Assembly: GCF_029350945.1 (NCBI RefSeq)
Contig: NZ_JARKMS010000001.1
Coordinates: 586,313 to 650,312 of the forward strand
Direction of reading: 5' to 3'
From: Maribacter huludaoensis
GTDB taxonomy: Bacteria > Bacteroidota > Bacteroidia > Flavobacteriales > Flavobacteriaceae
Length of the DNA stretch: 64,000 nucleotides
Shown piece after piece: positions 14,857-52,888 of this stretch. The translations under genes and the position numbers were made by a program. Within the stretch, counting starts at the first letter, position 1, and every line of letters starts with the position of its first letter. Below the pieces are notes generated by a model. It searched no databases, had not been told where the DNA came from, and worked only from the letters and a program-made list of their open reading frames with translations.

Positions 14857-17559
14857 ATGAAAAAAATGTATTTTGCGTTAGCGGCATTTTTAATGACCGT
14901 GACTGCTTTTTCACAAGGACCAATTTCTGGTACTGTATTAGATGGCGATACTAATACTCCGTTGCCAGGTGCTACAGTAATGGTAAAAGGTACTACTAAT
15001 GGAACATCAACTGATTTTGATGGAAATTTTACAATTAATGCAAGTTCTGAATCCGGAACTTTAGTGATTTCTTACATTGGGTTTAATTCAAAACAAATTA
15101 CTTTCACTTCAACAGGTAGTGTAGGTTCTATTGTATTGGAGTCTAATGCGGAAGAGTTAGAAGGTGTTGTTGTAACTGGAATTTTGGATATTGCAAAGGA
15201 TAGAGAAACTCCGGTGGCTGTATCAACTATTAGAGCTGCTGAAATTCAGGAAAAATTAGGTTCTCAAGAATTACCTGAGATTTTAAAATCTACTCCTTCT
15301 ATTTACGCTACCAAAACAGGTGGTGGTTTTGGTGATGGAAGAGTTAATGTTAGAGGTTTTGATTCTAGAAATACTGCAGTTATGGTTAATGGAATACCGG
15401 TCAATGATATGGAGAACGGTATAGTTTATTGGAGTAACTGGGCAGGTTTAGGTGATGTTACCACTGCAATGCAAGTACAAAGAGGTTTAGGATCTTCAAA
15501 ATTGGCAATCTCTTCTGTAGGTGGTACTATTAATGTTATTACAAAATCTACTGAAAAGGAACAAGGAGGTACTGTTATTCTTGGTGGAGGTAACGATGGT
15601 TATTTGAAAACATCGGTTGCTTATAATACTGGTAAATCTGATAAAGGCTTTGCAGCCTCTTTCCTATTTGGTAGAACTGCTGGTGATGGTTATATTCAAG
15701 GAACAGAGTTTGAAGGGTATAATTATTTTGTTGGTTTAGGATATGAGCCAAATGAGAAGCATAATTTCCAGTTTGTGTTAACTGGTGCTCCTCAGGTACA
15801 CAACCAAAGAACATCAAGTTTCTTCAATGTGGCAACATTGGAAGATCATTTAGAGTATGGAGCTAGATATAACTATAATGGTGGTACGCTAAACGGTGAG
15901 GAATTTGGATGGAGAAGAAATTTTTACCATAAACCAATAACTTCATTGACATGGGAATGGAAAGCTTCTGAAAAATCTACATTGTCTACTTCTGCCTATG
16001 CTTCCTTTGGTCGTGGAGGTGGAACAGGTGATATTGGTGCTGGTCCAAGTTTTGGTTTTGCTAGTTCTAGTAGATATAGAATACCTGCAACAGGTCAAGT
16101 TGATTATGATTTAATTTCACGTTTTAATGGTGGTGAGGCAGTTACTTTTTATGATGGTAACGATTACCAATTGTCTGCTAATGCCGATGGAGAGTATATT
16201 ACTACAAGTTTTGGCGATGGTCTTGCAAGAAGAGCATCGATTAATTCACATAACTGGTTTGGCGTAATTGCTAATTTGAATACTCAAATAAACGAAAAAT
16301 GGAACTACGACGTAGGATTGGATTTAAGAAGCTATAAGGGTATACATTATAGAAGAATGGATAATTTGCTTGGTGCAGATGGCTATTTTGACGATGATGA
16401 TATTAACAATCCTAATCATGTTATACGTGCAGAAGATACAATAGATTCTGATTTTAGTTCAATAGTGAATGTATTTAAAAGTATAGACGACGAAGAAAAA
16501 ATTGATTACTACAATGATGGTCTAGTTAGATGGGCCGGTGCATTTGGTCAAGTGGAATATACTGACGGTGTTGTTTCCGCCTTTGTGCAAGGTGGTATTT
16601 CAAATCAAGGGTTTAAAAGAATTGATTATTTCAATTATTTAGATTCTGATCCTTTACAAGAAACTGACTGGGAAAATATTTTAGGAGGTAATATTAAAGG
16701 TGGTGCTAACTTTAACTTGAGCGAAGCAAATAACGTTTTCTTTAATGCAGGCTATTATTCAAAACAACCACTTTTTGATGCAGTATATTTAAACTTTGTC
16801 AATGAATTGAACCCAGATTTAGCAAATGAGAAAATACTAGGTTTAGAAATGGGTTACGGTCTTAATTTAGGAGACTTTAGAGCTAAATTAAATTTGTATA
16901 GAACATCTTGGAAAGATAGATTTGTTCGTATAGGTATTGAAACACCAACAGGTGATGAAGGTAGTGCAAATATCAACGGTGTTGAGCAAATTCATCAAGG
17001 TATTGAAATTGAAGCGGATTATCGTGCATCAGAGATTGTACAGTTTAGAGGTATGATATCTTTAGGTGATTGGGAGTATGCTGGTAATGCAACTGGTCAA
17101 GCTCTTGATGATGACAGAAATGTTATCGATCCAGATGTAACCTTATTCTTAGATGGTGTAAAAGTTGGTGATGCTGCACAATTTACTACAAACTTGGAAA
17201 TGATAGTAAGACCATTGGAAGGTTTGAAAATTAGCGGTAACCTTTACAACGCATCAAGATTATATGCATTCTTAAATGCTGAAGATTTTGATTCTGCTGA
17301 CAATCAAGGATCATTACGTTTACCAAGTTATACTCTTTTTGACTTAGGAGCTTATTACACTTTTGGTTTTGGAGGAAATAATAAGCTAAGTATCGCAGCT
17401 AACGTAAACAACCTTTTTGATACAGAATATATAGCTGAATCATTAACAAATACTTTTGCGGAACAAGGAGATGATGTATTTAGAGGAATTTCTACGGACA
17501 ATAAAGTATTCTTTGGATTTGGAAGAACTTTCAACGTAAGTGCACGTTACAATTTTTAA
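14857..17559 (+). CDS. TonB-dependent receptor with carboxypeptidase-regulatory-like domain
   Basis: A 900-aa outer-membrane transporter. Order: signal peptide MKKMYFALAAFLMTVTAFSQ; CarboxypepD_reg-like domain (~23-105, GTVLDGDTNTPLPGATVMVKG, TDFDGNFTI); plug (~115-230, with VNVRGFDSRNTAVMVNGIPV); 22-strand-type barrel to a C-terminal SARYNF. The plug phrase DMENGIVYWSNWAGLGD is close to the equivalent NWGGLND stretch of the receptor at 19297, so both belong to the same receptor subgroup. No SusD-like partner follows; a terminator ends the transcript 21 bases after the stop. Substrate cannot be told from sequence. Confidence 0.95.
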   Translation: MKKMYFALAAFLMTVTAFSQGPISGTVLDGDTNTPLPGATVMVKGTTNGTSTDFDGNFTINASSESGTLVISYIGFNSKQITFTSTGSVGSIVLESNAEELEGVVVTGILDIAKDRETPVAVSTIRAAEIQEKLGSQELPEILKSTPSIYATKTGGGFGDGRVNVRGFDSRNTAVMVNGIPVNDMENGIVYWSNWAGLGDVTTAMQVQRGLGSSKLAISSVGGTINVITKSTEKEQGGTVILGGGNDGYLKTSVAYNTGKSDKGFAASFLFGRTAGDGYIQGTEFEGYNYFVGLGYEPNEKHNFQFVLTGAPQVHNQRTSSFFNVATLEDHLEYGARYNYNGGTLNGEEFGWRRNFYHKPITSLTWEWKASEKSTLSTSAYASFGRGGGTGDIGAGPSFGFASSSRYRIPATGQVDYDLISRFNGGEAVTFYDGNDYQLSANADGEYITTSFGDGLARRASINSHNWFGVIANLNTQINEKWNYDVGLDLRSYKGIHYRRMDNLLGADGYFDDDDINNPNHVIRAEDTIDSDFSSIVNVFKSIDDEEKIDYYNDGLVRWAGAFGQVEYTDGVVSAFVQGGISNQGFKRIDYFNYLDSDPLQETDWENILGGNIKGGANFNLSEANNVFFNAGYYSKQPLFDAVYLNFVNELNPDLANEKILGLEMGYGLNLGDFRAKLNLYRTSWKDRFVRIGIETPTGDEGSANINGVEQIHQGIEIEADYRASEIVQFRGMISLGDWEYAGNATGQALDDDRNVIDPDVTLFLDGVKVGDAAQFTTNLEMIVRPLEGLKISGNLYNASRLYAFLNAEDFDSADNQGSLRLPSYTLFDLGAYYTFGFGGNNKLSIAANVNNLFDTEYIAESLTNTFAEQGDDVFRGISTDNKVFFGFGRTFNVSARYNF

Positions 17560-18114: not shown

Positions 18115-18148
18115 TAAAGAACCTAGCATAATTATGTTAGGTTCTTTA
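18115..18148. terminator. Bidirectional terminator hairpin
   Basis: Arms TAAAGAACCTA/TAGGTTCTTTA with further inner pairing. It serves the gene ending at 18093 (+), and its 3' arm overlaps the stop codon of the nuclease gene coming from the other side. Confidence 0.7.
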
Positions 18149-19189
18149 TTGTTTCTGGACTTTTTTAATTAGGTGAAGGTATACGGGAAAATGGTCGCTA
18201 TAACCACCAATATAACTCCCTCCGGCATATGTTCTTAAAGGGTAGCCTTTATATTTTCCTTTGGGGTCCATTAAATATTCTGGGGTGAAAATACCTACTT
18301 TCCAGTAAATATAACCTTGTATTGCCTTGTCCGTAAGAGATGATGTCATATATAGTTGGTCGAATAAATTCCACTTATCACGATAAGCCAATGAACCTCT
18401 TCCTTTTCTATAAAGCTTTTCCATTGGTCCGTAAAGATTTGTAGAATCCAAATTTTTATAGTGCTTCTTAACTTGTAGTATTTTTTTAAAACTGGGGTCT
18501 ATAGGATCATCGTTAAAATCTCCCATGCTTATAATTTTAGCGTAGGTATCTAACTTTTGAACAGAATCTATTATTCGCTTGTTTAACTTGGCGGCTTCTA
18601 ATCTAAACGGCCTACTTCTGGCTTCGCCACCACTTCTAGATGGCCAATGGTTCACCATAAAATATATTTTTTCATTATCCAATAAGCCCTCTACAATTAG
18701 TTGATCCCTTGTGTAATCTCGTTTGCCATCAAGATTAAACAGAAGTAATCTATGGCTGTTAAAATTAACAGGCACAAAGGCACTTTTCTTATAAAGTAAG
18801 GCAACGTCTATACCTCTTTCATCGGGAGAGTCAAAATGAATGATGCCGTAGTTGTATGTGGCTAAATTAGTATGTTGTATTAAATCTTCCAGTACATTTA
18901 AGTTTTCTACTTCACAAACACCAATAATGTCCGGGGCTGTTTTATTATCGGTCGAACCAATTTCAGAAATTATCCTGGACATATTTTCTATTTTTTGTAA
19001 ATAGCGTTCTTTTGTCCAATTGTCTTTTCCGTCGGGTGTTCTATCGTCATCGTATATTAAAGAATCATTTTTAGTGTCAAAAAGATTCTCAAGATTGTAA
19101 AAAGCTACTGTTCTAATTTGATAAGTATCAGAATTTTGGGCTAATAAATTTATGTGGAGAAGTAGGAAGAGGACAAATGGTAATCGCAT
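18146..19189 (-). CDS. Exported endonuclease/exonuclease/phosphatase (EEP) family protein
   Basis: A 347-aa secreted EEP-fold phosphodiesterase, probably a nuclease. A signal peptide (MRLPFVLFLLLHINLLAQ) precedes a complete EEP core: N32 in FYNLENLFD, E93/E95 in VCEVEN, H181 in NHWPSRSGG, D224 and N226 in GDFNDDP, and D332-H333 in SDHFPV. All metal and catalytic positions appear intact. It is transcribed away from a TonB receptor and a DUF5689/lamin-tail lipoprotein, the two partners most suggestive of nucleic-acid scavenging. Substrate is not proven; EEP folds also include lipid and sugar phosphatases. Confidence 0.9.
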   Translation of the reverse strand: MRLPFVLFLLLHINLLAQNSDTYQIRTVAFYNLENLFDTKNDSLIYDDDRTPDGKDNWTKERYLQKIENMSRIISEIGSTDNKTAPDIIGVCEVENLNVLEDLIQHTNLATYNYGIIHFDSPDERGIDVALLYKKSAFVPVNFNSHRLLLFNLDGKRDYTRDQLIVEGLLDNEKIYFMVNHWPSRSGGEARSRPFRLEAAKLNKRIIDSVQKLDTYAKIISMGDFNDDPIDPSFKKILQVKKHYKNLDSTNLYGPMEKLYRKGRGSLAYRDKWNLFDQLYMTSSLTDKAIQGYIYWKVGIFTPEYLMDPKGKYKGYPLRTYAGGSYIGGYSDHFPVYLHLIKKVQKQ

Positions 19190-19226
19190 GTTAAAGGGTA
19201 TTTTGTCTTAATTATAAGCGAGTATA

Positions 19227-19237
19227 CGGAATTTCCG
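19227..19237. promoter_or_regulatory. Short palindrome in the divergent EEP/TonB promoter region
   Basis: CGGAA-T-TTCCG lies in the 107-base gap between the two divergent genes. It is short and could be chance, but it is the only GC-rich symmetric site in the gap. Confidence 0.25.
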
Positions 19238-19296
19238 CGTTAATTATTTCTTAAATACTATCTTAATGGCTCAATGTTAAGGCATTAAGTTTTAAA

Positions 19297-22038
19297 ATGA
19301 TTAAGCATACACTTTGTTTCTTGTTATTTCTAAAAATATGTTTCTTAAATGCTCAAAGGACCATAACAATATCTGGAGAAGTAAAAAATAAGATAGGAAA
19401 AGAGGTAATTATAGACGCAACTATTAGATTAGAAAGGAGCTCTATAGAAACGGCAACAAATAACTTAGGAGAGTTTCAGCTTATTACTGCATATAAAGGA
19501 GAATTTATATTACAAATTTCTTCTGCTGATTTTAATACTAAAAGAATACCAATATTTCTAGGTGAAAATAATATTGATCTTGGTAGTATCTTTTTAGATA
19601 GAGATATGACCATAGAGAAATCCATCAACCTTATCAATATCACTGATGAAGAGTTGTTAGATGAAGAGGTAAATTCTAACGCGCTTGCGTTACTGCAATC
19701 TACGAGAGACATTTTTTTAAACAGGGCGGCGTTTGATTTTGGTCAGGCGTTTTTTAGGGTAAGAGGATATGATTCTCAATATGGAGAAGTTCACCTAAAT
19801 GGATTGCCCATGAATAAAATGCTAAACGGTAGGCCACAATGGAACAACTGGGGAGGATTGAACGATGTAATAAGAAATCAACAATATACTAATGGTTTAG
19901 AGGCTTCAGATTTTACTTTTGGGGGTATTTTAGGGAATACTAACATAGATTTACGGCCTTCGGGATTACGGCCTGGAACAAGATTATCTTCTTCTATGTC
20001 TAATAGAACTTACAACGGTAGAGTTATGGCAACTTATAACTCTGGGGTCAAAGATGAAAAAGTGGCTTATATTATTTCTGCTTCTCGGCGTTGGGCAAAG
20101 CAAGGGTATATAGATGGCACATTGTACGATTCCTATTCGGCCTATGGTTCCATTGAATACTTATTAAATGAAAACAATACAATTTCCGCTACGGCAATAG
20201 TAGCATCTAACAGGAGAGGGCGCTCGTCCGCAATTACAGAGGAAGTACAAGAAATACAGGGCAACAGGTATAACCCTTATGCAGGTATACAGAACGGGAA
20301 AATTAGAAACTCTAGGGAAAGGCATATTAATGAACCACTGTTCTTGATCAACTACCTTCGTGAATCGGAAAATCTTCAATTAAATGTTGGTGTCGGTTAT
20401 CAAACAGGTGTTTATAAAAGAAGTCGTTTAGGATATTACAATGCTCCAAATCCAGACCCTACATATTACCGTTATTTACCCAGTTTTTATTTAAATAGTC
20501 CAATTGGGGCAAATTATGAAAGTGCTATACAGGCGGAAGAAGGTTTTCTTAAGTGGCCACAATTTGATTGGAATACTATTTATGAAGCAAATACAAGTAT
20601 AAGTCAAAACGGTGAAGCCGCATATGTACTATATGACGATATTACTAAAGACAATCAATTAACCGCTAGGGCAACCGCAAACATAAACTTTAACAAGCAT
20701 TCAGACTTTGATGTGGGGTTGACGCATCGCCAACTATACTCTAATAACTATGCTCGTATAGATGATCTTTTGGGAGCCGATTATCATAAAGATATAGACG
20801 TGTTTTCTGAAACGTTGAATGATGTTTCTAACGAAGTAAATAAATTGGAGGGGCAAATTTTTAATTATCAGTATAATCTAAACGGCAACAATACGGATTT
20901 ATTCGCTCAATTAAATACCTATTATAATAAGATAAAGTTATTTGTAGCAGGCAAGTATGAAATGGTCTCTTATCAAAGAGAAGGGTTATTTCAGAATGAA
21001 AGATATATTGATAATTCAATAGGAAAAAGTGAAAAAGTCAAGTTTTCTAATTGGTCAGTGAAGTCAGGAGCGGCTTATACCTTAACAGGTAGGCATTGGG
21101 TTTCTGCCCATGCCGCAATAATGAATAAAGCACCTGTTTTACAAAACGTATTTATTAATCCTAGAGAAAATAACGCTATCGTCCCAAATATGCAAAATGA
21201 AACTATTACGAGTGTAGATGCCAATTATTTTTTTAGAATGCCAAAATTAACCGGTAGGTTTACCGGTTTTTATACTCGTTTTCAAAATACCACCGATGTA
21301 AATTTCTTTTTTGTTGATTCTGGGGTGGGTTCAGATTTTGTGCAAGAAGTAATTACCGATTTAGACAAATTACAGATGGGTACCGAACTTGGTTTAGAGT
21401 ACCAACTGTCTAGTGCGGTTAAACTATCATTAGTTGCCTCAGTGGCAAAACATGAATATGCCAGTAATCCTTTTGTGACTATTAATTTTGATACTGCGGG
21501 CGCTACCGAAGATTTGATAGATATATCGGGCTCTAAATTTTTAGGACCATCTGCTGTAAAGGGTTACAAATTGGCGCAAGGTCCGCAAAAAGCAATTGCG
21601 GCAGGTGTGGAATACAGAGATCCCAAATATTGGTGGATAAGTGCTTCTGCAAACTATCTCGCAAACAATTATGCTAATATTTCTACAATAACCAGAACCC
21701 AAAGTTTTTTTATTGATCCAGAAACGCAATTAAGGTTCCCTGATGCAACAGATGAAAATGTGCGGAAACTTCTAAGACAAAAGCCACTTGATAATTTTTA
21801 TTTATTAAATATGGTTGGCGGTAAATCATGGCTGAAGAATGGCAAATACATAAGTGTATTTGCCAGTATTAACAATCTTTTTGACACCACTTTTAGAACA
21901 GGTGGCTACGAGCAAAGTAGAAACGGCAATTATGGTCAATTAAAGCAAGATAACTTAAGCGGTAACCCGTCTTTTGCACCAAAATATTGGTATGGGTTCG
22001 GTAGAACTTATTTTTTAAATTTTGCTTTTAGTTTTTAA
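19297..22038 (+). CDS. TonB-dependent receptor (putative nucleic-acid-associated locus)
   Basis: A 913-aa outer-membrane receptor. A signal peptide ends at FLNAQ; the CarboxypepD_reg-like domain spans ~24-105; the plug (~125-235) includes FFRVRGYDSQYGEVHLNG and GRPQWNNWGGLNDV; the barrel runs to the terminal FLNFAFSF. It is followed 16 bp later by a lipoprotein with DUF5689 and lamin-tail domains, so receptor and lipoprotein form an outer-membrane pair, reminiscent of SusCD organisation without SusD. The gene faces an exported EEP nuclease. Substrate assignment to DNA, nucleotides or phosphate compounds is inference from that context. Confidence 0.93.
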   Translation: MIKHTLCFLLFLKICFLNAQRTITISGEVKNKIGKEVIIDATIRLERSSIETATNNLGEFQLITAYKGEFILQISSADFNTKRIPIFLGENNIDLGSIFLDRDMTIEKSINLINITDEELLDEEVNSNALALLQSTRDIFLNRAAFDFGQAFFRVRGYDSQYGEVHLNGLPMNKMLNGRPQWNNWGGLNDVIRNQQYTNGLEASDFTFGGILGNTNIDLRPSGLRPGTRLSSSMSNRTYNGRVMATYNSGVKDEKVAYIISASRRWAKQGYIDGTLYDSYSAYGSIEYLLNENNTISATAIVASNRRGRSSAITEEVQEIQGNRYNPYAGIQNGKIRNSRERHINEPLFLINYLRESENLQLNVGVGYQTGVYKRSRLGYYNAPNPDPTYYRYLPSFYLNSPIGANYESAIQAEEGFLKWPQFDWNTIYEANTSISQNGEAAYVLYDDITKDNQLTARATANINFNKHSDFDVGLTHRQLYSNNYARIDDLLGADYHKDIDVFSETLNDVSNEVNKLEGQIFNYQYNLNGNNTDLFAQLNTYYNKIKLFVAGKYEMVSYQREGLFQNERYIDNSIGKSEKVKFSNWSVKSGAAYTLTGRHWVSAHAAIMNKAPVLQNVFINPRENNAIVPNMQNETITSVDANYFFRMPKLTGRFTGFYTRFQNTTDVNFFFVDSGVGSDFVQEVITDLDKLQMGTELGLEYQLSSAVKLSLVASVAKHEYASNPFVTINFDTAGATEDLIDISGSKFLGPSAVKGYKLAQGPQKAIAAGVEYRDPKYWWISASANYLANNYANISTITRTQSFFIDPETQLRFPDATDENVRKLLRQKPLDNFYLLNMVGGKSWLKNGKYISVFASINNLFDTTFRTGGYEQSRNGNYGQLKQDNLSGNPSFAPKYWYGFGRTYFLNFAFSF

Positions 22039-22054
22039 AAATCAAGTAATTTAA

Positions 22055-23419
22055 ATGAATAATAATGTCAATAAATATTTTGTGATTATGGCTATTGCCA
22101 TAGTGCTTTTCTCATGTGTAAAAAATAGAGAATTTGATACACCTGAAATAGAATGTTTAGATGCTGATGGTACATTTATTTCGATAGCTGATTTAAAGAA
22201 TAAGTACAATGGAGAGACCGCACAAATTTATGAAGACCTGTTCCTGAAAGGTTATGTAATCTCTTCTGATAAGGAGGGTAATTTTTTTAATACGATATTT
22301 TTTCAAGATGAGTCAAGCAATCCGTCAGAAGGAATGAAGATAGAATTAGAATTAAGGGATTCTCATTTGTTCTTTGATGTTGGTCAGCAAATTGTAATTA
22401 AATTGAAAGGATTGTATTTAGGCGAATCTAATGGCACATATAAGATTGGTGGTGTATTTACTTCCTTTGGGAAACGTAGTGTTGGTAGGTTGCCTAAAAA
22501 TGTTGTTTTTGACCATATTCTAATCTCTTGTAACGACAATTTTGGAATAGAGCCTACAACAGCCGTAATTTCAGAATTGAACGATGGCATGCTTAATACA
22601 TTGATAGTACTGAACAATGTAGAAATAAAATTAGAAGAACTTGGGGAAACTTTTGCTACTAAAGAAGTAGAAACATTTAGAACCTTGGTAGATTGTTTTG
22701 ATAACGAATTGCTGATGTTAAATAGCGGCTATGCCGATTTTCAATCAGAAATTCTACCTGATAAAATGGGTAGTGCCACTGGTTTGTTAACTAAGGATAA
22801 CAACAGGTACCAATTAATAATACGTAGCTTAAAAGACCTTGAATTTGAACAACAACGATGTGTAGATTATATAGATGAATTTACGTCTCCTTCAATTTTA
22901 ATAACTGAGATTGCCGACCCCAACAATAATGCAGGCGCAAGATTTGTGGAGCTTTACAATTCAGCAGAAGAAAATATGTCTTTAAAAGGTTGGAGTTTAA
23001 AGCGTTACACCAATGATAATGTTGAAGTCAGCTCTAGTATAGACTTGTCTGAATATGAAATACCAGGTCAAGGATTTTTAATCATATCACCTAACGCAGA
23101 AGAATTTAATAATATTTACGGTTTTAATGCTAATGTGTCAGTAGGTACCAATTCACCAGCAGATTCTAACGGTGATGATACTATTGTGTTAGTGGATCCC
23201 TTTGATTCTGTTGTAGATATTTTTGGAGTAATCGGTGAAGATGGTAGTAATACCAACCACGAATTTGAAGATGGTAGAGCTGTTAGAAAAATGGAAATAG
23301 AAGCTAACAATGCTGTTTTCAATTCAGCGGAATGGTTTATTTATAATGACACCGGTGGTGCGGGAACAGTTAATATGCCACAAAATGCACCATTGGATTT
23401 TAACCCGGGTGTAAGATGA
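22055..23419 (+). CDS. DUF5689 and lamin-tail-domain lipoprotein
   Basis: A 454-aa surface or periplasmic lipoprotein. Lipobox VLFSC places the lipid on C21. Residues ~30-270 match the DUF5689 layout; the part at ~60-140 (LKGYVISSDKEGNFFNTIFF, then IVIKLKGLYLG) resembles an OB-fold of the kind found in secreted ExeM/NucH nucleases. Residues ~280-425 form a lamin-tail domain (ILITEIADPN, FVELYNSAEE, LKGWSLKRY, GQGFLIIS). OB-like plus LTD, with the EEP enzyme encoded divergently, gives the parts list of an ExeM-type nuclease. Probably co-transcribed with the upstream receptor. Its stop lies 2 bp from the stop of the convergent response regulator. Confidence 0.88.
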   Translation: MNNNVNKYFVIMAIAIVLFSCVKNREFDTPEIECLDADGTFISIADLKNKYNGETAQIYEDLFLKGYVISSDKEGNFFNTIFFQDESSNPSEGMKIELELRDSHLFFDVGQQIVIKLKGLYLGESNGTYKIGGVFTSFGKRSVGRLPKNVVFDHILISCNDNFGIEPTTAVISELNDGMLNTLIVLNNVEIKLEELGETFATKEVETFRTLVDCFDNELLMLNSGYADFQSEILPDKMGSATGLLTKDNNRYQLIIRSLKDLEFEQQRCVDYIDEFTSPSILITEIADPNNNAGARFVELYNSAEENMSLKGWSLKRYTNDNVEVSSSIDLSEYEIPGQGFLIISPNAEEFNNIYGFNANVSVGTNSPADSNGDDTIVLVDPFDSVVDIFGVIGEDGSNTNHEFEDGRAVRKMEIEANNAVFNSAEWFIYNDTGGAGTVNMPQNAPLDFNPGVR

Positions 23420-23421
23420 TA

Positions 23422-23829
23422 TTACGCTAGCTCCTTTGAATCTATGATTTTTTTTACGGCGCTTTCTGTCAAAGGTTTTACAATATAATCTTTTACCAAT
23501 TTGTAGTCTTTTGCTTTTTCCATGAATTTAGGACTGATAAAGGAACTGGTAATATAGATTTTTATGTGCCCTATCTTATCTTCAGGGAGGTCTTTAAATT
23601 CTTCTAGAAAAGACCAGCCGTCTCTATTTGGCATGTTTAAATCCAAAAAAATGACATCAGGTAATTTAATATTTTCAACTAATAGACCAATTAGACCATC
23701 TAGAGCCTCTTGTCCCCCCGTGTAGTATAAGATATTATCACTAAAATTATGATTTTTTAAAATGTTTTTACTACTGATAGAAAAAAATTCATCATCATCA
23801 ATTATACAACAGCTAGAAAATATGCTCAT
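23422..23829 (-). CDS. Single-domain response regulator
   Basis: A 135-aa receiver domain with no output domain. The acidic pocket is in CCIIDDDEFF, the phospho-acceptor aspartate in FLDLNMPNRDGW, the switch Ser/Thr in YITSSF and the lysine in YIVKPL. Such proteins relay phosphate or act by protein contact. It is a paralogue of the receiver at 24004, 175 bp upstream on the same strand, and both are likely partners of the PAS kinase at 24424. Confidence 0.93.
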   Translation of the reverse strand: MSIFSSCCIIDDDEFFSISSKNILKNHNFSDNILYYTGGQEALDGLIGLLVENIKLPDVIFLDLNMPNRDGWSFLEEFKDLPEDKIGHIKIYITSSFISPKFMEKAKDYKLVKDYIVKPLTESAVKKIIDSKELA

Positions 23830-24003
23830 GTTTAATTATTATAAAAGTAAATCTTTGTCAGATTTTAGATTACTAAGTCTGTAGGCAATTATAATCGACT
23901 AAATTATATAAATTATTAAGTGATGATATTTAATAAAAATAAGTTACACTCCTTTTTATTAACAATAGCATTTTTTAAAAGGCTAAATAATTTCTTGTTC
24001 TCA

Positions 24004-24411
24004 TTAACTTTCTACCGTAGCTCCTAATATTTTACCAAGGTCATCTGGTGTAATCGGTTTTAAAATATAGGTGTCTACTTGTTCATAATTTTTGACCCTT
24101 TCTAAATCCCTAGGGTCTACAGATGAACTAATTATATAGATTACAATCTTCTTTGATAGTGGGCTTTTACAGTTTTTGAACTCATCTAGAAATTCCCAGC
24201 CATTTAAGATAGGCATGTTCAGGTCCAAAAAGATTACATCTGGCAACGGTTCGTTGGCAATGCATAATTTCATGAGTCCGTCAAGGGCATCTTTACCGTT
24301 GTTATAAACAATAATAGAATTGGCAAAATTTACTTCTTTTATAATTCTTTTGGTGCCATATACAAAAATTGGGTCGTCATCTATAATACAACAAATTTCA
24401 ATTTTTTTCAT
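24004..24411 (-). CDS. Single-domain response regulator
   Basis: A receiver domain of about 135 aa. Visible: acidic residues in CCIIDDDPIF, phospho-acceptor in FLDLNMPILNGWEFL, IISSSV switch, and YILKPI lysine. An ATG at 24411 is preferred over an in-frame TTG at 24417, which would add two residues. It lies directly downstream of the PAS histidine kinase (12-bp gap), so the two form a kinase/receiver pair. Confidence 0.93.
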   Translation of the reverse strand: MKKIEICCIIDDDPIFVYGTKRIIKEVNFANSIIVYNNGKDALDGLMKLCIANEPLPDVIFLDLNMPILNGWEFLDEFKNCKSPLSKKIVIYIISSSVDPRDLERVKNYEQVDTYILKPITPDDLGKILGATVES

Positions 24412-24423
24412 TTTCAATTTTTA

Positions 24424-26619
24424 TTAGCCCTGTTTAAGTTTAATGATGATTTTGGTTCCTTTGTCTACTTTACTTTCAATATTTATGCTCCCGCTCATTG
24501 ATTCGATCTGGTTCTTCGTAATGAATAAACCAATGCCTTTGGCATCTTTATGCTTATGAAAGGTTTTGTACATGCCAAAAATTTTGTCGCCATGCCTTTT
24601 CAAATCTATACCTTGTCCGTTATCGGTAAATGAAATTACCATAAGTTGTTCTTCAATATGAGATGTAATTTTAATTATAGGTGTTCGTTTTTCAGAACTA
24701 TATTTCAGTGCATTTGTTAGAATATTTAAAAAGATACTTTCCAGATATGCAGGTACTGCATTTACAAAATGTGTTTTACAAATGTCAATTTTAAGTTGTG
24801 CCTCTTTGTCTTCCAATAGACCATTGATACTTTTGGTGATATGATTTATTGTATTGATTACACTTATGCTTTGTAGATTTTCTAGCGTACCGGTTTTGAT
24901 CTGAACAACATCGTTTAAATGTGCAATAGTTTCAGAAAGGCTTTCGGTAGCACTGGTAATCATTCTATGAATGTTCTGGCGTTCCTCATCATCTTTTTCT
25001 TTGTTCAAAAATTTGGTGAGCATAACCATGTTTGTGGAGTGCGAGCGAAGGTTGTGAGAAACGATATGGGCAAAATTGGTAAGGCTTTCGTTTTGGCTCT
25101 TTGTAACATCTACCAGTGCCTCTAATTTTTTTTGTGACTCAATTCTTTCGGTAATATCCAAAAACTGGATAATGATATGGCTTATATTGCCATTTATATC
25201 TTTAACAGGTGTTGCGCCTATTATGGCATGGACAATGTTGCCGTTTTTATGAAAGTATCTTTTTTGAAATTGTAAGTTTATTGTATCACCTTCAATTACT
25301 TTCTTTTTAAAATAGCGGCTTCCCGGTAAATCATCTGGATGGGTAATATCATTGGAAGATATTTTTAATAACTCATTTTCAGAATATCCTAAACTTTTGC
25401 ATAAGCTTTTGTTTGCTTTTAGCCAATTAAGATCTGGGCTAACAAGCGCCATCCCAATAGATGAATGTTCAAAAGTTTCGGTAAAGGATTTGGTGCTTTC
25501 CGCCAGCTTAATTTCAGTGCTGCGCAGCTCTGTAATGTCCCAGTTTGCCCCTGTCATTTTAACGGCGGTGCCATTAATGTCATTAATAGTTTTTGAAAGA
25601 CCCTTAATATGTCTTATAGTTCCATTTTTATGTATAATTCTGTACTCTTCATCAAAGTCCTTTATACCATTGATAGCATTTTCGGTCGCTGTTAAAACCC
25701 TTTTTAAATCATCTGTATGAATTGTTGATGACCAAGCTTCAAATGCTCCTGAAAAATTGAACTTTTCTATATCGAAAATGCGATACATTTCATCGTCCCA
25801 ATCTAAATTGTTTTCGGTTAAGTTATAATTCCATGTACCAATTTGTGCGGTTTGTGAGGTCATTTTCAATCGCTCCGAAATTTCTTGATGGGCCAACTCA
25901 ATTTTTTTTCGCTCATCAATATCTTGAAAAGTACCAATAAGTCTTACCGCTTTGCCGTTTAATATTTCAACTTCGCCTTTGGCACAGACCCAGACCTCTC
26001 TTCCTTTTGCGGTAATAATTATAAGCTCGGTGTCAAAAGATTTGCCTTCTGCAATTGCGTTACTTACTAAATATGATATTTTATCCCTATGAACACCCTC
26101 TTTATAAAAATTTATTCCCTCTTCTAAATTTGGAACAAAGTCTTGGTCTACTTCATGGATTTCCTTTGTAGTCTTTGTCCAATATACGGTATTGTTCAGT
26201 AAATCAAGTTCCCAACATCCAATTCTGGCAACTTCCTCGGCCTTATGTAGTAATTCTATTTCTTTTTGTTCTTCAGTAATATCATCTAAGAATATGATGG
26301 CTCCGTCAAAACCTTGATTTTCAACTTTAGAAGGTATAATTTTCCACTTAAGCCATTGTAACGTGCCATCCGGTAGAATAAATTTTTGTCCGGTATTAAT
26401 ATGTTCTTCCCCATTAATACCATTGCTTATGGCTTTTTTGAAAAAATCAGGCGTTTCAATTATGCTCTCAAATAAATTTTTATTGACGTAATCAGTGTTG
26501 CCTAAACTAAATCTATCATGCCACTCGTTAGAGTAGTTAATAAAGTTTAACTTAGTATCCACGATAGCAATTGCATTGGGGGACTCTTTTAAAAGAAAGT
26601 CAACGGCTAATGTTTTCAA
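24424..26619 (-). CDS. Four-PAS-domain sensor histidine kinase
   Basis: A 731-aa kinase lacking transmembrane segments, so a cytosolic sensor. Four PAS/PAC units are visible at ~10-120, ~128-245, ~250-370 and ~378-495, each ending in a D-I/D-T/D-E-R/Q type linker (LDDITEEQKE, FQDIDERKK, WDITELR, LDITERIE). The dimerisation/phospho-acceptor helix carries the H-box in FAHIVSHNLRSH, and the ATPase domain has N-box NILTNALKYSS and G-box DNGQGI. The start is TTG at 26619, preceded in frame by a stop codon, and no in-frame ATG occurs before the first PAS domain. Signal unknown. Genetically paired with the receiver genes downstream. Confidence 0.93.
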   Translation of the reverse strand: MKTLAVDFLLKESPNAIAIVDTKLNFINYSNEWHDRFSLGNTDYVNKNLFESIIETPDFFKKAISNGINGEEHINTGQKFILPDGTLQWLKWKIIPSKVENQGFDGAIIFLDDITEEQKEIELLHKAEEVARIGCWELDLLNNTVYWTKTTKEIHEVDQDFVPNLEEGINFYKEGVHRDKISYLVSNAIAEGKSFDTELIIITAKGREVWVCAKGEVEILNGKAVRLIGTFQDIDERKKIELAHQEISERLKMTSQTAQIGTWNYNLTENNLDWDDEMYRIFDIEKFNFSGAFEAWSSTIHTDDLKRVLTATENAINGIKDFDEEYRIIHKNGTIRHIKGLSKTINDINGTAVKMTGANWDITELRSTEIKLAESTKSFTETFEHSSIGMALVSPDLNWLKANKSLCKSLGYSENELLKISSNDITHPDDLPGSRYFKKKVIEGDTINLQFQKRYFHKNGNIVHAIIGATPVKDINGNISHIIIQFLDITERIESQKKLEALVDVTKSQNESLTNFAHIVSHNLRSHSTNMVMLTKFLNKEKDDEERQNIHRMITSATESLSETIAHLNDVVQIKTGTLENLQSISVINTINHITKSINGLLEDKEAQLKIDICKTHFVNAVPAYLESIFLNILTNALKYSSEKRTPIIKITSHIEEQLMVISFTDNGQGIDLKRHGDKIFGMYKTFHKHKDAKGIGLFITKNQIESMSGSINIESKVDKGTKIIIKLKQG

Positions 26620-48451: not shown

Positions 48452-51235
48452 ATGAGAGCAATACTTCTTTTAGCATTGATGATTATGGGTACTCTAGGGT
48501 ATTCCCAGACCAATATCAGTGGTAATGTTGTTGATCAAAACAATGCACCTATTCCGGGTGCGAATATTGTTATTGTCGGCAAAACCATTGGAACAGTGAC
48601 AGATTTTGATGGTAATTTTAATTTGGCTACATCCGAGGTGCCACCTTTTAAGATAGAGGTGTCCAGTATTGGATATACAAGTACTACGGAAAGTATTACA
48701 AGTGCCAACCAAAAAATTACAATAACCTTGAATGAATCTCAAACGTTTTTAGATGAGGTGGTAATATCTGCATCTAGAACCCCTGAGCGTATTTTTGAAT
48801 CTCCTGTTACGGTAGAGCGAATTGGTATTTCTGAAATTAAGAATACTACCGCAGCCGATTTTTATGGAGGGTTAGAGAATTTGAAAGGAGTTGACGTTAA
48901 TACGAACAGTTTAACGTTCAAGTCTGTAAACACTAGAGGTTTTGCTTCTTTTGCCAATACCCGTTTTATGCAACTTGTAGATGGTATGGATAACTCTACA
49001 CCTGCATTGAACTTCCCTATCGGTAATTTGGTAGGTATGGTTGAGACCGATGTGTTAAGTGTAGAATTATTACCAGGAGCTTCTTCGGCACTTTATGGCG
49101 CAAATGCCTTCAACGGTATTTTGTTTATGCGCAGCAAGAGTCCTTTTGATTATGAAGGTATAAGCGTATCTGTTAAACAGGGAATTACATCTCAGAAAGC
49201 GGCGGGGGATAATTCATATACAGATTTTGGTATTAGAGCGGCACATAAATTCAGTGATAAATTTGCGGCAAAAGTTAATTTCGGTTATTTGAAAGGAACA
49301 GACTGGGCAGCTAACAACACGGATGATAAGATTACGCCAGGTGGTACACGAGATAATTTGAACTATGATGGCGTAAACGTTTATGGTGATGAGGTTTCTA
49401 CAAATATTAAAGAAGTTGCCTTAACTTTAGAAGGTTTAGGTATTTTACCGGCTGGGGCAAATGCTTTGGTACCTTCGGAAATAGTAAGTAGAACCGGTTA
49501 TAACGAAAGTGATCTTACCAATTATAACGCAGAAAGTATTAAGGCGGACTGGGGATTATACTACAGGCCTATTGAAGATAATAGTTTAGAGCTTTCTTAT
49601 GTTGGTAAAGTGGGTACGGGTAATACAATTTATCAAGGTACCAACAGATATAATATTAAAGGTTTCTTTCAAGAGCAGCATAAGCTTGAAATCAAGAACG
49701 ATAACTTTTTTCTAAGAGGTTATATGGTTGGTGATAAGTCTGGCGACTCTTATGATATGGTATTTACAGGTATCAATATTAACAGGGCTTGGAAAGATGA
49801 TAATACATGGTTCGGTGAATATACCGGTACATATGTACAGGCTACTTTGGGCGGGGCTACAGATGAGCAAGCTCATGCCGCAGCAAGAGCACAGGCAGAA
49901 TCTGGAAGGTTTTTGCCAGGTTCACCGGAATTTCAAGCTGCGTTCAACAGAAGTGTAAACGATCCAGATCTATCTACCGGCTCTAAATTTCAAGATGCTT
50001 CAAAATATTACCATGCAGATGGTAACTATAACTTTAGTCATTTAATTGATTGGGCAGAGATTCAAGTAGGTGGGTCTTTTAGGGAATATGATCTTAATTC
50101 GTCAGGTACTATTTACACGGATTTTGATGGTCCAATTAGATATTCTGAATTTGGTATTTATTCTCAAGTTCAAAAAACACTTCCTTTTGAAGGCGAAAAG
50201 AGTTTAAAGTTAACAGGTTCTATAAGATATGATAAGTCAGAGTTGTTTGATGGTTTTTTCTCTCCTAGATTATCTGCAGGTTATACCTTAAATAGAAACC
50301 ATAATATTAGGGCTTCTGCACAAACGGGCTTTAGAAATCCTACTACTCAAGATCTTTTTATTGGTTTAAATGCCGGTAGAGCTATTTTGGTGGGATCTGC
50401 TGAAGACAATTTAGATCGTTATTCAAGAGAATATGGAATTAGTGCAAGCGGGCAATTGTTAGGTCAGCCTTCTGAAGTTACACAGACAGGTGGCGCGGCA
50501 TATAACAACTCTTATTCTGCAGCTTCCGTAACGGCATTAGGTGCAACTGGTGATCCAAGTGTTCTTGAAGTTGCCAATCCTGATTTGATCAAACCTGAAA
50601 AAGTGACGTCTTTTGAAATAGGGTATAGAGGTAAGGTAGATAAAGTGGTTATCGATTTTAGTACGTACTATAACAGTTATGAAGATTTTATCTCGCAGGA
50701 AGTGGTAATTTCTCCATTTTACGGGCAAGCTGGTGACGGTGGGCTATCGGTTGCGGCAATAGCTAACGGAGATTTTCAAGCTTACAGTGCTTATACCAAT
50801 ACAGATGCCAATGTAAATTCTTATGGTGCATCGTTAGGATTGGATGTAAAAGTATTGGGTAATTTCGATTTAGGTGGTAGTTATACGTTTACCAAGTTAG
50901 ATTTTGACCGCGAGGCAAACCCAGATGTTATGTTGAATTTTAACACACCAGAGCACAAGTTCAAGGCATCTTTTGGTAACAAGGAACTGTTTGAAAATTT
51001 CGGATTTAACGTATCATATAGATTTAGCGATGATTATTTCTGGGAAGCTACTTTTGGTAACGGGGTAATTCCTGAATTCCATGTTGTAGATGCTCAAATT
51101 AATTATGATGTGCCAAGTATAAAGTCTTCTTTTAAATTGGGTGGAACAAACCTTACCAATAAAGAATATTACACGGCATTTGGTACTGGCTTTATAGGTT
51201 CTATGTACTATTTATCTTGGACAATTAACAACTAA
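48452..51235 (+). CDS. TonB-dependent receptor
   Basis: A 927-aa outer-membrane receptor. Signal peptide MRAILLLALMIMGTLGYSQ; CarboxypepD_reg-like domain (~20-105, GNVVDQNNAPIPGANIVIVG); plug (~115-225, TRGFASFANTRFMQLVDGMD, ELLPGASSALYGANAFNGIL); long barrel with TonB-receptor signature features in TGFRNPTTQDLFIGLN and ending WTINN. The plug wording is vitamin B12/siderophore-type but the substrate is not determinable. A lipoprotein with an SGNH-hydrolase fold follows 18 bp later; the two appear to be a fixed pair. Confidence 0.95.
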   Translation: MRAILLLALMIMGTLGYSQTNISGNVVDQNNAPIPGANIVIVGKTIGTVTDFDGNFNLATSEVPPFKIEVSSIGYTSTTESITSANQKITITLNESQTFLDEVVISASRTPERIFESPVTVERIGISEIKNTTAADFYGGLENLKGVDVNTNSLTFKSVNTRGFASFANTRFMQLVDGMDNSTPALNFPIGNLVGMVETDVLSVELLPGASSALYGANAFNGILFMRSKSPFDYEGISVSVKQGITSQKAAGDNSYTDFGIRAAHKFSDKFAAKVNFGYLKGTDWAANNTDDKITPGGTRDNLNYDGVNVYGDEVSTNIKEVALTLEGLGILPAGANALVPSEIVSRTGYNESDLTNYNAESIKADWGLYYRPIEDNSLELSYVGKVGTGNTIYQGTNRYNIKGFFQEQHKLEIKNDNFFLRGYMVGDKSGDSYDMVFTGININRAWKDDNTWFGEYTGTYVQATLGGATDEQAHAAARAQAESGRFLPGSPEFQAAFNRSVNDPDLSTGSKFQDASKYYHADGNYNFSHLIDWAEIQVGGSFREYDLNSSGTIYTDFDGPIRYSEFGIYSQVQKTLPFEGEKSLKLTGSIRYDKSELFDGFFSPRLSAGYTLNRNHNIRASAQTGFRNPTTQDLFIGLNAGRAILVGSAEDNLDRYSREYGISASGQLLGQPSEVTQTGGAAYNNSYSAASVTALGATGDPSVLEVANPDLIKPEKVTSFEIGYRGKVDKVVIDFSTYYNSYEDFISQEVVISPFYGQAGDGGLSVAAIANGDFQAYSAYTNTDANVNSYGASLGLDVKVLGNFDLGGSYTFTKLDFDREANPDVMLNFNTPEHKFKASFGNKELFENFGFNVSYRFSDDYFWEATFGNGVIPEFHVVDAQINYDVPSIKSSFKLGGTNLTNKEYYTAFGTGFIGSMYYLSWTINN

Positions 51236-51253
51236 TTAAAATCAAAAGTTGAA

Positions 51254-52888
51254 ATGAAAAACTTAAAATATTTATATATTTCTTTAGGTGTATTGGCTTT
51301 TACCGCTTGTAATGATCCTGAAGATGTAGATCTTGAACCAGAGATGATGGCAGAAGAGTTGCCTGCATTGACCGCTGGTTCCGCAGATTTCTCTAATTAT
51401 GTTTCTTTAGGAAACTCTTTAACGGCAGGTTTTACTGATGGCGCTTTATTTCAGGCTAGCCAGAGTCTCTCTCTTCCTAACTTGTTGTCCCAAAAATTCA
51501 GTCTTGTAGGTGGTGGTTCCTTTACACAGCCATTGACCAATGATAATCTTGGTGGTTTGGCGCTTGCTGGAACAAGAATTCAAGGGCCAAGATTGGTATT
51601 TGGTGGTGCAGGTCCGGTTTCATTAGAATCTTTAATTGGAGATGTTACGGTAACTACTGATATAGCTTTGAACAACCCAACAGGGCCTTTTAATAATTTA
51701 GGAGTGCCTGGTGCAAAAAGTTTTCACTTATTAGCGCCCGGTTACGGGAACATAGCTAACGTGCAATTGGGTCTTGCTAATCCCTATTTTGTTAGAATGA
51801 CGGGTGCAACACCGGATATTAGCGTATTACAGATGGCTGTAGGGCAATCGCCTAGTTTTTTCTCATTATGGATCGGTAACAACGATGTATTAGGTTATGC
51901 TACTACAGGTGGTGATGGAACAAATCCTATTACCCCTGTTTCCGGTGCACCGGGAGTTGGCTTTGACGGCAGTTATGGAGCTTTAATAGCTTCCTTGACC
52001 GCAACGGGAGCTAAAGGTGTTGTGGCTAATATTCCTAATGTAACAGATGTACCACATTTTACTACGGTGCCACATAATCCGTTAGACCCTACTAATCCAG
52101 ATTTTGGGCCACAAATTCCTACCTTGAACGGAATCTTTGGTCAGTTGAATCAAGTTTATGAATTTTTAGAGGTACCGGAGCGTTCTATTAAATTTTCGGA
52201 GACGCAAGCAAGTGAGGTTGTGATCAGGGATGAAACATTACCGGATTTGTCAGCTCAGATTGCGGGTGTTTTAATTGCTAGTCCTACTTTTCCTGCATTT
52301 GTAGAATCATTTGGATTACCGGCGCAGGCAGCACCATTGGTTGCCGGTTTGTTGGGTAGTACATATGGACAAACAAGGGAGGCTACGGCAGATGACTTAT
52401 TTGTATTGCCAAGTGCTTCTGTAATAGGAACGGTAAATTTAGAATCTGTTTCCAATTTAATGACAGCAGGCTTGCCACAGGCATTGGCAGGTCAGTTTTC
52501 TGTAGAAGGAATATCACTTCCCTTAGAAGATAAATGGGTTTTGATACCAAGTGAGCAAGATGAAATTGCAGAAGCAACCGCAGCCTTTAATGAAATTATA
52601 GCGGCTACCGCTAGTCAGGCAGGTTTGGCCTTGGTAGATGCAAATAGTCTTTTAAATCAGTTGGCCAATGGTGGTATTACAAGTGGAGATTTCACTTTAC
52701 AATCAAATTTAGTGACCGGTGGAGCCTTTTCTTTAGACGGTATTCACCCAACAGCTAGAGGTTATGCCTTGTTGGCAAATGAGTTTATGATGGCAATAGA
52801 TGCTACTTATGGTTCTAATTTTGAAGAATCAGGTAGTTTGTTGAATGTAGGTGACTACCCTACCAACTACCCGGCTACGCTACAATAG
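51254..52888 (+). CDS. SGNH/GDSL-hydrolase-family outer-membrane lipoprotein
   Basis: A 544-aa lipoprotein, lipobox AFTAC (C19). SGNH blocks are visible but widely spaced: block I reads GNSLTAG with S55 as nucleophile (N54 replaces the usual D of GDSL), block III GNND at 208-211, block V D495 and H498 in DGIHPTARGY. The ~280 residues between blocks III and V exceed a simple SGNH domain, so there is a large insertion. Probable esterase or deacetylase acting with the adjacent TonB receptor on an esterified substrate; inference only. Confidence 0.88.
   Translation: MKNLKYLYISLGVLAFTACNDPEDVDLEPEMMAEELPALTAGSADFSNYVSLGNSLTAGFTDGALFQASQSLSLPNLLSQKFSLVGGGSFTQPLTNDNLGGLALAGTRIQGPRLVFGGAGPVSLESLIGDVTVTTDIALNNPTGPFNNLGVPGAKSFHLLAPGYGNIANVQLGLANPYFVRMTGATPDISVLQMAVGQSPSFFSLWIGNNDVLGYATTGGDGTNPITPVSGAPGVGFDGSYGALIASLTATGAKGVVANIPNVTDVPHFTTVPHNPLDPTNPDFGPQIPTLNGIFGQLNQVYEFLEVPERSIKFSETQASEVVIRDETLPDLSAQIAGVLIASPTFPAFVESFGLPAQAAPLVAGLLGSTYGQTREATADDLFVLPSASVIGTVNLESVSNLMTAGLPQALAGQFSVEGISLPLEDKWVLIPSEQDEIAEATAAFNEIIAATASQAGLALVDANSLLNQLANGGITSGDFTLQSNLVTGGAFSLDGIHPTARGYALLANEFMMAIDATYGSNFEESGSLLNVGDYPTNYPATLQ

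Follow-up and report, generated by a model that had tools for sequence, protein, structure and literature searches.

A Maribacter locus encoding a TonB-dependent receptor, a DUF5689 lipoprotein and an EEP enzyme, with a probable role in importing DNA across the outer membrane for natural transformation

The 64,000-nucleotide stretch of Maribacter huludaoensis DNA considered here (the window; RefSeq assembly GCF_029350945.1, contig NZ_JARKMS010000001.1, positions 586,313 to 650,312) contains a three-gene locus that probably acts at the outer membrane in a pilus-independent pathway by which Bacteroidota import DNA for natural transformation. The locus comprises a TonB-dependent receptor (TBDT), a DUF5689 lipoprotein encoded directly behind it and a divergently encoded enzyme of the EEP superfamily. 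With good confidence, the TBDT and the lipoprotein are regarded as a DNA importer, in which the TBDT would serve as the DNA pore and DUF5689 would bind DNA, in an organism that would itself be competent. The secreted EEP is assigned, with a confidence slightly below even, the role of a metal-dependent nuclease that trims or single-strands incoming DNA. The list of open reading frames (ORFs) places all three genes where the preliminary description had located them, with the EEP gene divergent from the other two; 16 bp separate the TBDT and lipoprotein genes. The features are as follows.

18146..19189, minus strand: EEP enzyme gene, 347 aa (ORF with a PF19580 match at 8.3e-116 and catalytic motifs; hydrophobic N-terminus judged by eye)
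19190..19296: divergent intergenic region between the EEP and TBDT genes, 107 bp
19297..22038, plus strand: gene of a TBDT-type outer membrane protein, 913 aa, likely orthologue of RA0C_RS04915
19843..19851, plus strand: site of the plug motif NNWGGLND (AACAACTGG), intact in the window; it corresponds to the element insertion point in genomes G003 and G012, that of G522 lying within ~5 bp
22055..23419, plus strand: lipoprotein gene, 454 aa, likely orthologue of RA0C_RS04920
22175..22837, plus strand: DUF5689 region, residues 41-261, modelled as two OB-like barrels
22886..23230, plus strand: lamin-tail domain (LTD), residues 278-392, an exchangeable C-terminal module

Relation to the transformation genes of Riemerella anatipestifer

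In R. anatipestifer ATCC11845, clean deletion of either RA0C_RS04915 or RA0C_RS04920 brings transformation below detection, against 5.4e-5 for the wild type (Huang et al. 2021, PMC8459023). According to that paper, RA0C_RS04915 is an outer membrane protein with a carboxypeptidase-regulatory domain and RA0C_RS04920 carries DUF5689 and choice-of-anchor J; its authors propose binding of DNA by RS04920, its passage by way of RS04915 and its conversion to single strands by a protein yet to be identified, and they term this model speculative. In the same species, tonBA and tonBB mutants are reported to be lower in transformation, two of the three tonB genes contributing and one effect being ascribed to iron (PMC8383284).

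The window TBDT and lipoprotein are likely orthologues of this pair, judging from sequence comparison. Five receptors were used as queries in a scan of named genomes, and the best 80 of 181 relatives include R. columbina (L082) and R. anatipestifer CCUG25054 (L083). The gene order in L083 is ComEC, a 145-aa ORF, a carboxyltransferase, EEP (minus strand), TBDT (plus) and DUF5689 (plus), in agreement with the published tags RS04895 (ComEC), 04915 and 04920, which advance in steps of five; by this order, the EEP of R. anatipestifer would be RS04910. The L083 lipoprotein matches the M949_1556 family (NF052645; 590.8 bits, cut-off 475) and also choice-of-anchor J, as published for RS04920, and the window lipoprotein falls outside that family (185 bits against the same cut-off). 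When this genome is searched with the L083 TBDT, in this one direction, the window TBDT scores 451.5 bits and the next best protein 71.7. Directly downstream of this best match lies the lipoprotein, the single match of a DUF5689 profile search of the genome. In a tree of 56 receptors built by a quick method, 48 receptors, including those of the window and Riemerella, form a group with 97% support, within which the branching mostly follows class, order and family. Outside this group fall eight receptors, six of them neighbouring ones (TBDT2) and two from f20 and f21. Identity to the R. anatipestifer proteins is ~33% for the TBDT and 26% for the lipoprotein. Downstream of the R. anatipestifer lipoprotein, L083 15664-21106 holds a 1,400-aa ORF followed by two short ORFs, which by eye we take to be a type II CRISPR-Cas set (Cas9, Cas1, Cas2).

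By analogy with R. anatipestifer, where both genes are required for transformation, the same may hold in M. huludaoensis, and a role of the pair in outer-membrane DNA import for transformation, by genes already known in Riemerella, is very probable. The preliminary description had suggested an uptake system for DNA, oligonucleotides or phosphate compounds; DNA is retained, through the published deletions of the likely Riemerella orthologues, whereas scavenging recedes, since transformation is the role most directly evidenced. It is very improbable that the locus takes up some other phosphate ester or nutrient, with the EEP as its phosphatase or phosphodiesterase and a Riemerella phenotype that is not transferable to this family. 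Enzymes of the EEP superfamily act on many different substrates, TBDTs carry mostly small ligands and the receptor identity to Riemerella is modest, all of which would suit such a system; it is countered by the preserved gene order and single DUF5689 match, the clear best match, the coherent tree and the lack of a secretin match in this genome.

Predicted properties of the three proteins and the competence background

The TBDT matches CarbopepD_reg_2 above the cut-off and Plug below it (20.2 vs 23.9 bits). None of the NCBIfam families, OMP_RagA_SusC included, matches at E 0.01, and in a PDB sequence search merely the CarbopepD-like stretch is matched. The structure model is of low confidence (mean pLDDT 50.6) and serves solely to confirm the class: the 50 listed PDB matches are TonB-dependent transporters (PqqU, FhuA, OprC and others; best E 4.5e-16).

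The lipoprotein, with a Cys at residue 21 behind a hydrophobic stretch, contains DUF5689 (4.7e-65) and an LTD (8.5e-13), both of which had been named in the preliminary description; a PDB sequence search gave no match. The DUF5689 model covers approximately residues 31-273, with pLDDT blocks of 65-96, and the LTD was left unmodelled, probably because the alignment lacked it. Foldseek matches of this model in the PDB include HIN domains (p204, IFI16, p202), the Oxytricha telomere protein (TEBP alpha), LEF-3 and aminoacyl-tRNA synthetases, which we take to be tandem-OB DNA binders and, for the synthetases, enzymes with an OB domain. The E-values of the 50 listed matches range from 1e-4 to 3e-2, two being at 0.001 or better, and the TM-scores normalised by target reach at most 0.42, which amounts to moderate support for an OB fold; the low TM-scores result in part from counting the disordered half. 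The OB-like fold anticipated for DUF5689 is thus moderately supported by the prediction, in the form of tandem OB-like barrels.

Among 48 related lipoproteins, DUF5689 is found in 47, choice-of-anchor J in 26, DUF5017 in 10 and the LTD in nine. On these domain matches, DUF5689 is the core and the C-terminal module varies, so that the LTD, although present in the window protein, is not a defining part; as an essential binding module it was rejected on this count. Surface exposure of the family is weakly indicated by its N-terminal sequences: a strict export signal (K(D/E)2 or QA(D/E)2, the consensus given in PMC5080379) occurs in eight of the 48, and at least two acidic residues at +2 to +7 in 34, counts in which the script picked a Cys within the signal peptide in several rows.

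The EEP belongs to PF19580 (Exo_endo_phos_3), with a match of 386.8 bits (gathering cut-off 27 bits; E 8.3e-116) that spans residues 27-342 and the full profile (1-311 of 311). All five motif patterns that we take to be expected of the superfamily are found (FYNLENLFD, GVCEVEN, NHWPSR, GDFND and SDHFPV), and they recur in 99 to 104 of 104 EEP entries from related loci, four entries being counted twice. The earlier view of an exported enzyme with a full catalytic set is therefore upheld, the export leader being judged by eye from the hydrophobic N-terminus. The protein is a probable divalent-metal nuclease or phosphodiesterase by its motifs; a PDB sequence search with it gave no match. In R. 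columbina, EDTA is reported to inhibit transformation and Ca, Mg, Zn or Mn to restore it, which fits a metal enzyme without proving one. Two more PF19580 genes are present in this genome (C7:149376-150290 and C7:468727-469677), and a leaderless EEP paralogue recurs in L069, L070, L072 and L073, near a gene that is presumably hflX.

This genome encodes ComEC, DprA and NamZ_N/DUF1343. Pfam searches of two ComEC proteins, the 586-aa one of R. anatipestifer and the 670-aa one of this genome, return Competence and DUF4131 only, with no metallo-beta-lactamase or other nuclease domain; an HxHxDH-type motif was found in neither, nor, by eye, an HxDxDH in their tails. As these two ComEC proteins have no recognisable nuclease domain, the EEP is a candidate for the missing nuclease. 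That ComEC domain degrades DNA, and strand degradation without it is described as an open question, according to PMC8579336. The secretin PF00263 gave no match in 15 of 17 locus-bearing genomes, including this genome and R. anatipestifer. When one ComEC and one DprA were compared by blastp with the ORFs of L062-L201, ComEC was found only in L083 and DprA only in L076, L092 and L093 (L076 and L092 apparently being one genome, and a diverged ComEC being able to escape blastp); close linkage of competence genes to the locus as a general rule was rejected on this result. In an order-level sample, DprA occurs in 66 of 66 NF052645-positive and 55 of 130 negative genomes (rows matched by eye), a co-occurrence that is given little weight because many of the negative genomes are reduced and the 66 positives include weak, partial matches.

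Conservation of the arrangement and mobile elements in the receptor gene

Two sets of regions were hand-picked from longer match lists. Set A consists of 20 regions around TBDT or lipoprotein matches: the TBDT is present in all 20, the lipoprotein lies downstream in 19 (absent in L080; a small gene in between in two) and a divergent EEP is found in 19 (exception L072). The lipoprotein of L081 has no DUF5689 match. Set B consists of 40 regions around DUF5689 matches, drawn from 97 matching genomes. A receptor of the locus type is present in 23 of them, the lipoprotein adjoins it in all 23, and the EEP adjoins in 11 (10 divergent, one in the same orientation). The remaining 17 regions are sites of DUF5689 that lack a receptor of this type, L163 being a strong one. 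In both sets taken together, the EEP is adjacent in 30 of 43 loci. In the named loci (best 80 of 181), nearly all of which come from Weeksellaceae genera, with two labelled only 'Bacteroidetes bacterium', and of which at least two genomes (G189, G040) are apparently also in set A, the three genes are found in 79, L106 being cut by a contig end. Within the genus, the window genome included, EEP and lipoprotein are each present in 29 of 30 short loci; the exceptions are L020, the interrupted receptor of G003 with the EEP beyond the element, and L027, which ends before the lipoprotein. Homologues of RS04915 have been reported in Flavobacteriaceae only (PMC8459023); the arrangement is found here in further orders of the class as well (f18, f19, f25). 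Its recurrence in different families and orders is more than chance would produce. The EEP-TonB-DUF5689 synteny raised in the preliminary description is thus kept in most loci, but linkage of the EEP is not universal, as set B demonstrates.

The receptor is split into two ORFs in G193 (L192 6792-9612), and in G010 (L238) receptor, lipoprotein and EEP are all fragmented, perhaps through sequencing error. Alignment of the EEP/TBDT intergenic region among related loci revealed, by eye, no clear common operator, and a promoter scan of the window was not informative (39 found vs 30.8 expected).

In two congeners, G003 and G012 (L234-L237), the TBDT gene is broken at one common 9-bp site in the plug motif, equivalent to window positions 19843-19851, by elements of ~17.7 kb and ~28.2 kb, respectively. 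The two elements are 69-78% identical over stretches and share a large serine recombinase (78% identity; 388 aa in G012) located beside the N-terminal half of the TBDT, as well as ArdA, a small resolvase and an ExoVII_L-like gene. In G522, which belongs to another genus (L239/L247), a 68% identical recombinase (555 aa) lies ~74 bp from a TBDT fragment starting at residue 185, in the opposite orientation; the contig ends within the element, no N-terminal half of the TBDT was seen, and no lipoprotein was found beside the receptor. All three recombinases of this kind that were found are in the TBDT gene, and only G522 is an independent find, because G003 and G012 came up via the broken receptor. 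No other recombinase as close was seen in overlapping samples of 199 (E 1e-20) and 397 (E 1e-60) family genomes, to which G003 and G012 do not belong. Elements in comM of Acinetobacter (PMC11472951) and in comEC of Piscirickettsia (PMC12955456) are precedents, and by analogy an insertion in the TBDT gene may block transformation. A broader scheme can be put forward only tentatively: a pilus-free importer, distributed through this class of Bacteroidota and made of a TonB-driven receptor, a tandem-OB cap and a dedicated secreted EEP that degrades the non-transforming strand instead of a ComEC nuclease domain, the receptor gene of which serine-recombinase elements would use as attachment site, closing the door to their own removal.

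Ten of the 17 DUF5689 places without a locus-type receptor were scanned for fusions. Behind DUF5689, six contain an EEP domain (PF03372), one PLD and one endonuclease I, with neither kind in the remaining two; the eight nuclease fusions (L168, L196-L201, L165) match the type IX secretion system (T9SS) sorting domain, in two cases with a score under the cut-off. In L168, LTD, DUF5689 and EEP follow each other in one chain with a T9SS tail, an ExeM-like layout in a Bacteroidota genome. Some of the fused proteins match the ExeM/NucH model weakly (20 to 33 bits, cut-off 300), at positions within 16-133 over DUF5689 in L196, L199 and L201. Their EEP domains give no PF19580 match at E 0.001 and score at most 20.6 bits with a profile of the locus EEPs, so that the locus points to an analogous division of labour and not to a recent gene split. 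The label of a split ExeM/NucH nuclease, given in the preliminary description, accordingly holds by analogy, through the nuclease fusions and the single LTD-DUF5689-EEP chain, and not by membership, the LTD being a minority module. Membership was rejected on scores of 28.7 bits for the EEP and 40.9 bits for the lipoprotein against cut-offs of 300 (NF033681) and 1300 (NF033680), and in place of one LTD-OB-EEP chain the window has two separate ORFs.

Regarding the neighbouring genes, a second, canonical TBDT is encoded at window 14857-17559, flanked by PGI and a 146-aa membrane protein; similar receptors occur close to the locus in L062, L063, L073 and L080, with a more distant one in L071. Directly downstream of the lipoprotein and convergent with it, window 23422-26619 holds genes that, by eye, encode a sensor kinase of PAS type and a pair of short response regulators, and a homologue of the kinase with at least one regulator homologue occupies the same place in L062, L063 and L071. 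Further away, at window 48452-52888, a lipoprotein gene stands behind another CarbopepD-type receptor gene; by eye, the two may be a SusC/SusD-like pair.

A proposed import route, its rivals and known systems

In the proposed mechanism, the lipoprotein, with its tandem OB-like DUF5689 and exchangeable choice-of-anchor J or LTD module, would bind extracellular DNA at the cell surface and cooperate with the TBDT, which would move the DNA across the outer membrane on TonB energy. The EEP would trim or single-strand the DNA, no nuclease domain for this being recognisable in the two ComEC proteins, and ComEC, encoded elsewhere, would carry one strand over the inner membrane.

Several observations weigh against this mechanism. 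The EEP is not adjacent in 13 of the 43 sampled loci, 11 of which are in genus g23, presumably Flavobacterium-like; the ten g23 exceptions present in the tree form one clade, G084 and G100 of the same genus do have an adjacent EEP, and 12 of the 13 have an EEP elsewhere whose N-terminus is hydrophobic by eye, nine of them on the same contig at ~15 to 55 kb. In G123 the sole EEP has no hydrophobic leader. The EEP gene is not among the 20 genes named by the R. anatipestifer transformation screen (PMC8459023); by calculation, a 1.2-kb gene would escape 3,000 insertions spread over 2.3 Mb with a chance of ~21%. Secretin matches occur in two of the 17 genomes (G115, G198), and low-identity pilus-like proteins, PilQ included, are listed for F. 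johnsoniae (PMC7965970). In this genome ComEC lies ~275 kb from the locus, and the window lipoprotein (CVKNREF) has no clear surface-export signal. Finally, phosphate dependence is opposite in two Riemerella species, its removal reportedly lowering transformation of R. anatipestifer and raising that of R. columbina, and the lipoprotein family takes its name from M949_1556, which is cited as having a part in lipopolysaccharide (LPS) synthesis, antigenicity and pathogenicity.

The last two points bear on distinct rivals. The response of R. columbina to phosphate would suit a scavenging system, in which the EEP digests extracellular DNA, the lipoprotein catches it and the TBDT imports the fragments as a P, N or C source, with transformation as a by-product. 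This is unlikely, although an EEP with intact motifs and a hydrophobic leader beside a TBDT, as well as the T9SS-tailed DUF5689-nuclease fusions in other Bacteroidota, would agree with it. The R. anatipestifer deletions are reported to abolish transformation by a polymerase chain reaction (PCR) fragment with homology arms, so that longer DNA must pass or be needed; in addition, removal of phosphate reportedly lowers transformation of R. anatipestifer, and the neighbouring genes include no obvious phosphate module by eye. Scavenging and transformation are compatible rather than exclusive. Since M949_1556 is cited for LPS, antigenicity and pathogenicity, and the L083 lipoprotein is a member of its family, an indirect effect is also conceivable, in which the TBDT and the lipoprotein shape the outer membrane or its LPS and transformation is lost as a consequence. 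This is improbable, taking into account the tandem OB-like fold resembling that of DNA-binding proteins, the linkage and fusion to nuclease-type genes, the mobile elements within the TBDT gene and the fall of transformation below detection, rather than in part, in R. anatipestifer.

To our knowledge, how DNA passes the outer membrane in secretin-free bacteria is an open question. The locus is a concrete candidate for this passage and for strand degradation without a ComEC nuclease; if the DNA import reading is true, this lineage imports long DNA via a TonB-dependent receptor, the gene of which could be used to look for competence across Bacteroidota. What the present analysis adds to the Riemerella pair is a third component that is often linked, the EEP, as well as a tandem OB-like fold predicted for DUF5689, occurrence in further orders, fusions to nucleases and mobile elements in the receptor gene; the latter would extend the conflict between mobile elements and transformation, as in comM and comEC, to a new gene and lineage. 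Among the papers listed for the open PMC literature, preprints excluded, we found nothing on the TBDT/DUF5689 pair after 2021 and no naming of the EEP gene as part of this transformation system.

With ExeM/NucH (NF033681, NF033680; PMC6085458) the locus shares the kinds of module, namely lamin tail, OB-like region and EEP, but in the window these are on separate proteins, the EEP is of PF19580 and a TBDT is added. SusC/SusD systems likewise combine a TBDT bearing a CarbopepD-like N-terminal domain with a lipoprotein behind it; membership was rejected, since the window lipoprotein has no SusD-type domain and the TBDT no OMP_RagA_SusC match. Uptake by type IV pilus, PilQ and ComEA likewise serves to deliver DNA through the outer membrane to ComEC, but this genome and R. 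anatipestifer have no secretin match, the search being confined to the secretin among pilus genes. The closest system is the Riemerella pair. It differs in that the window lipoprotein has an LTD in place of choice-of-anchor J and the window locus is not beside ComEC; in the accessible text of PMC8459023, moreover, RS04910 is mentioned just as the upstream gene, with no EEP nuclease proposed. In both, the TBDT is followed directly by a DUF5689 lipoprotein, the window receptor is the best match of the Riemerella one by a wide margin, and an EEP lies divergently upstream, as in CCUG25054.

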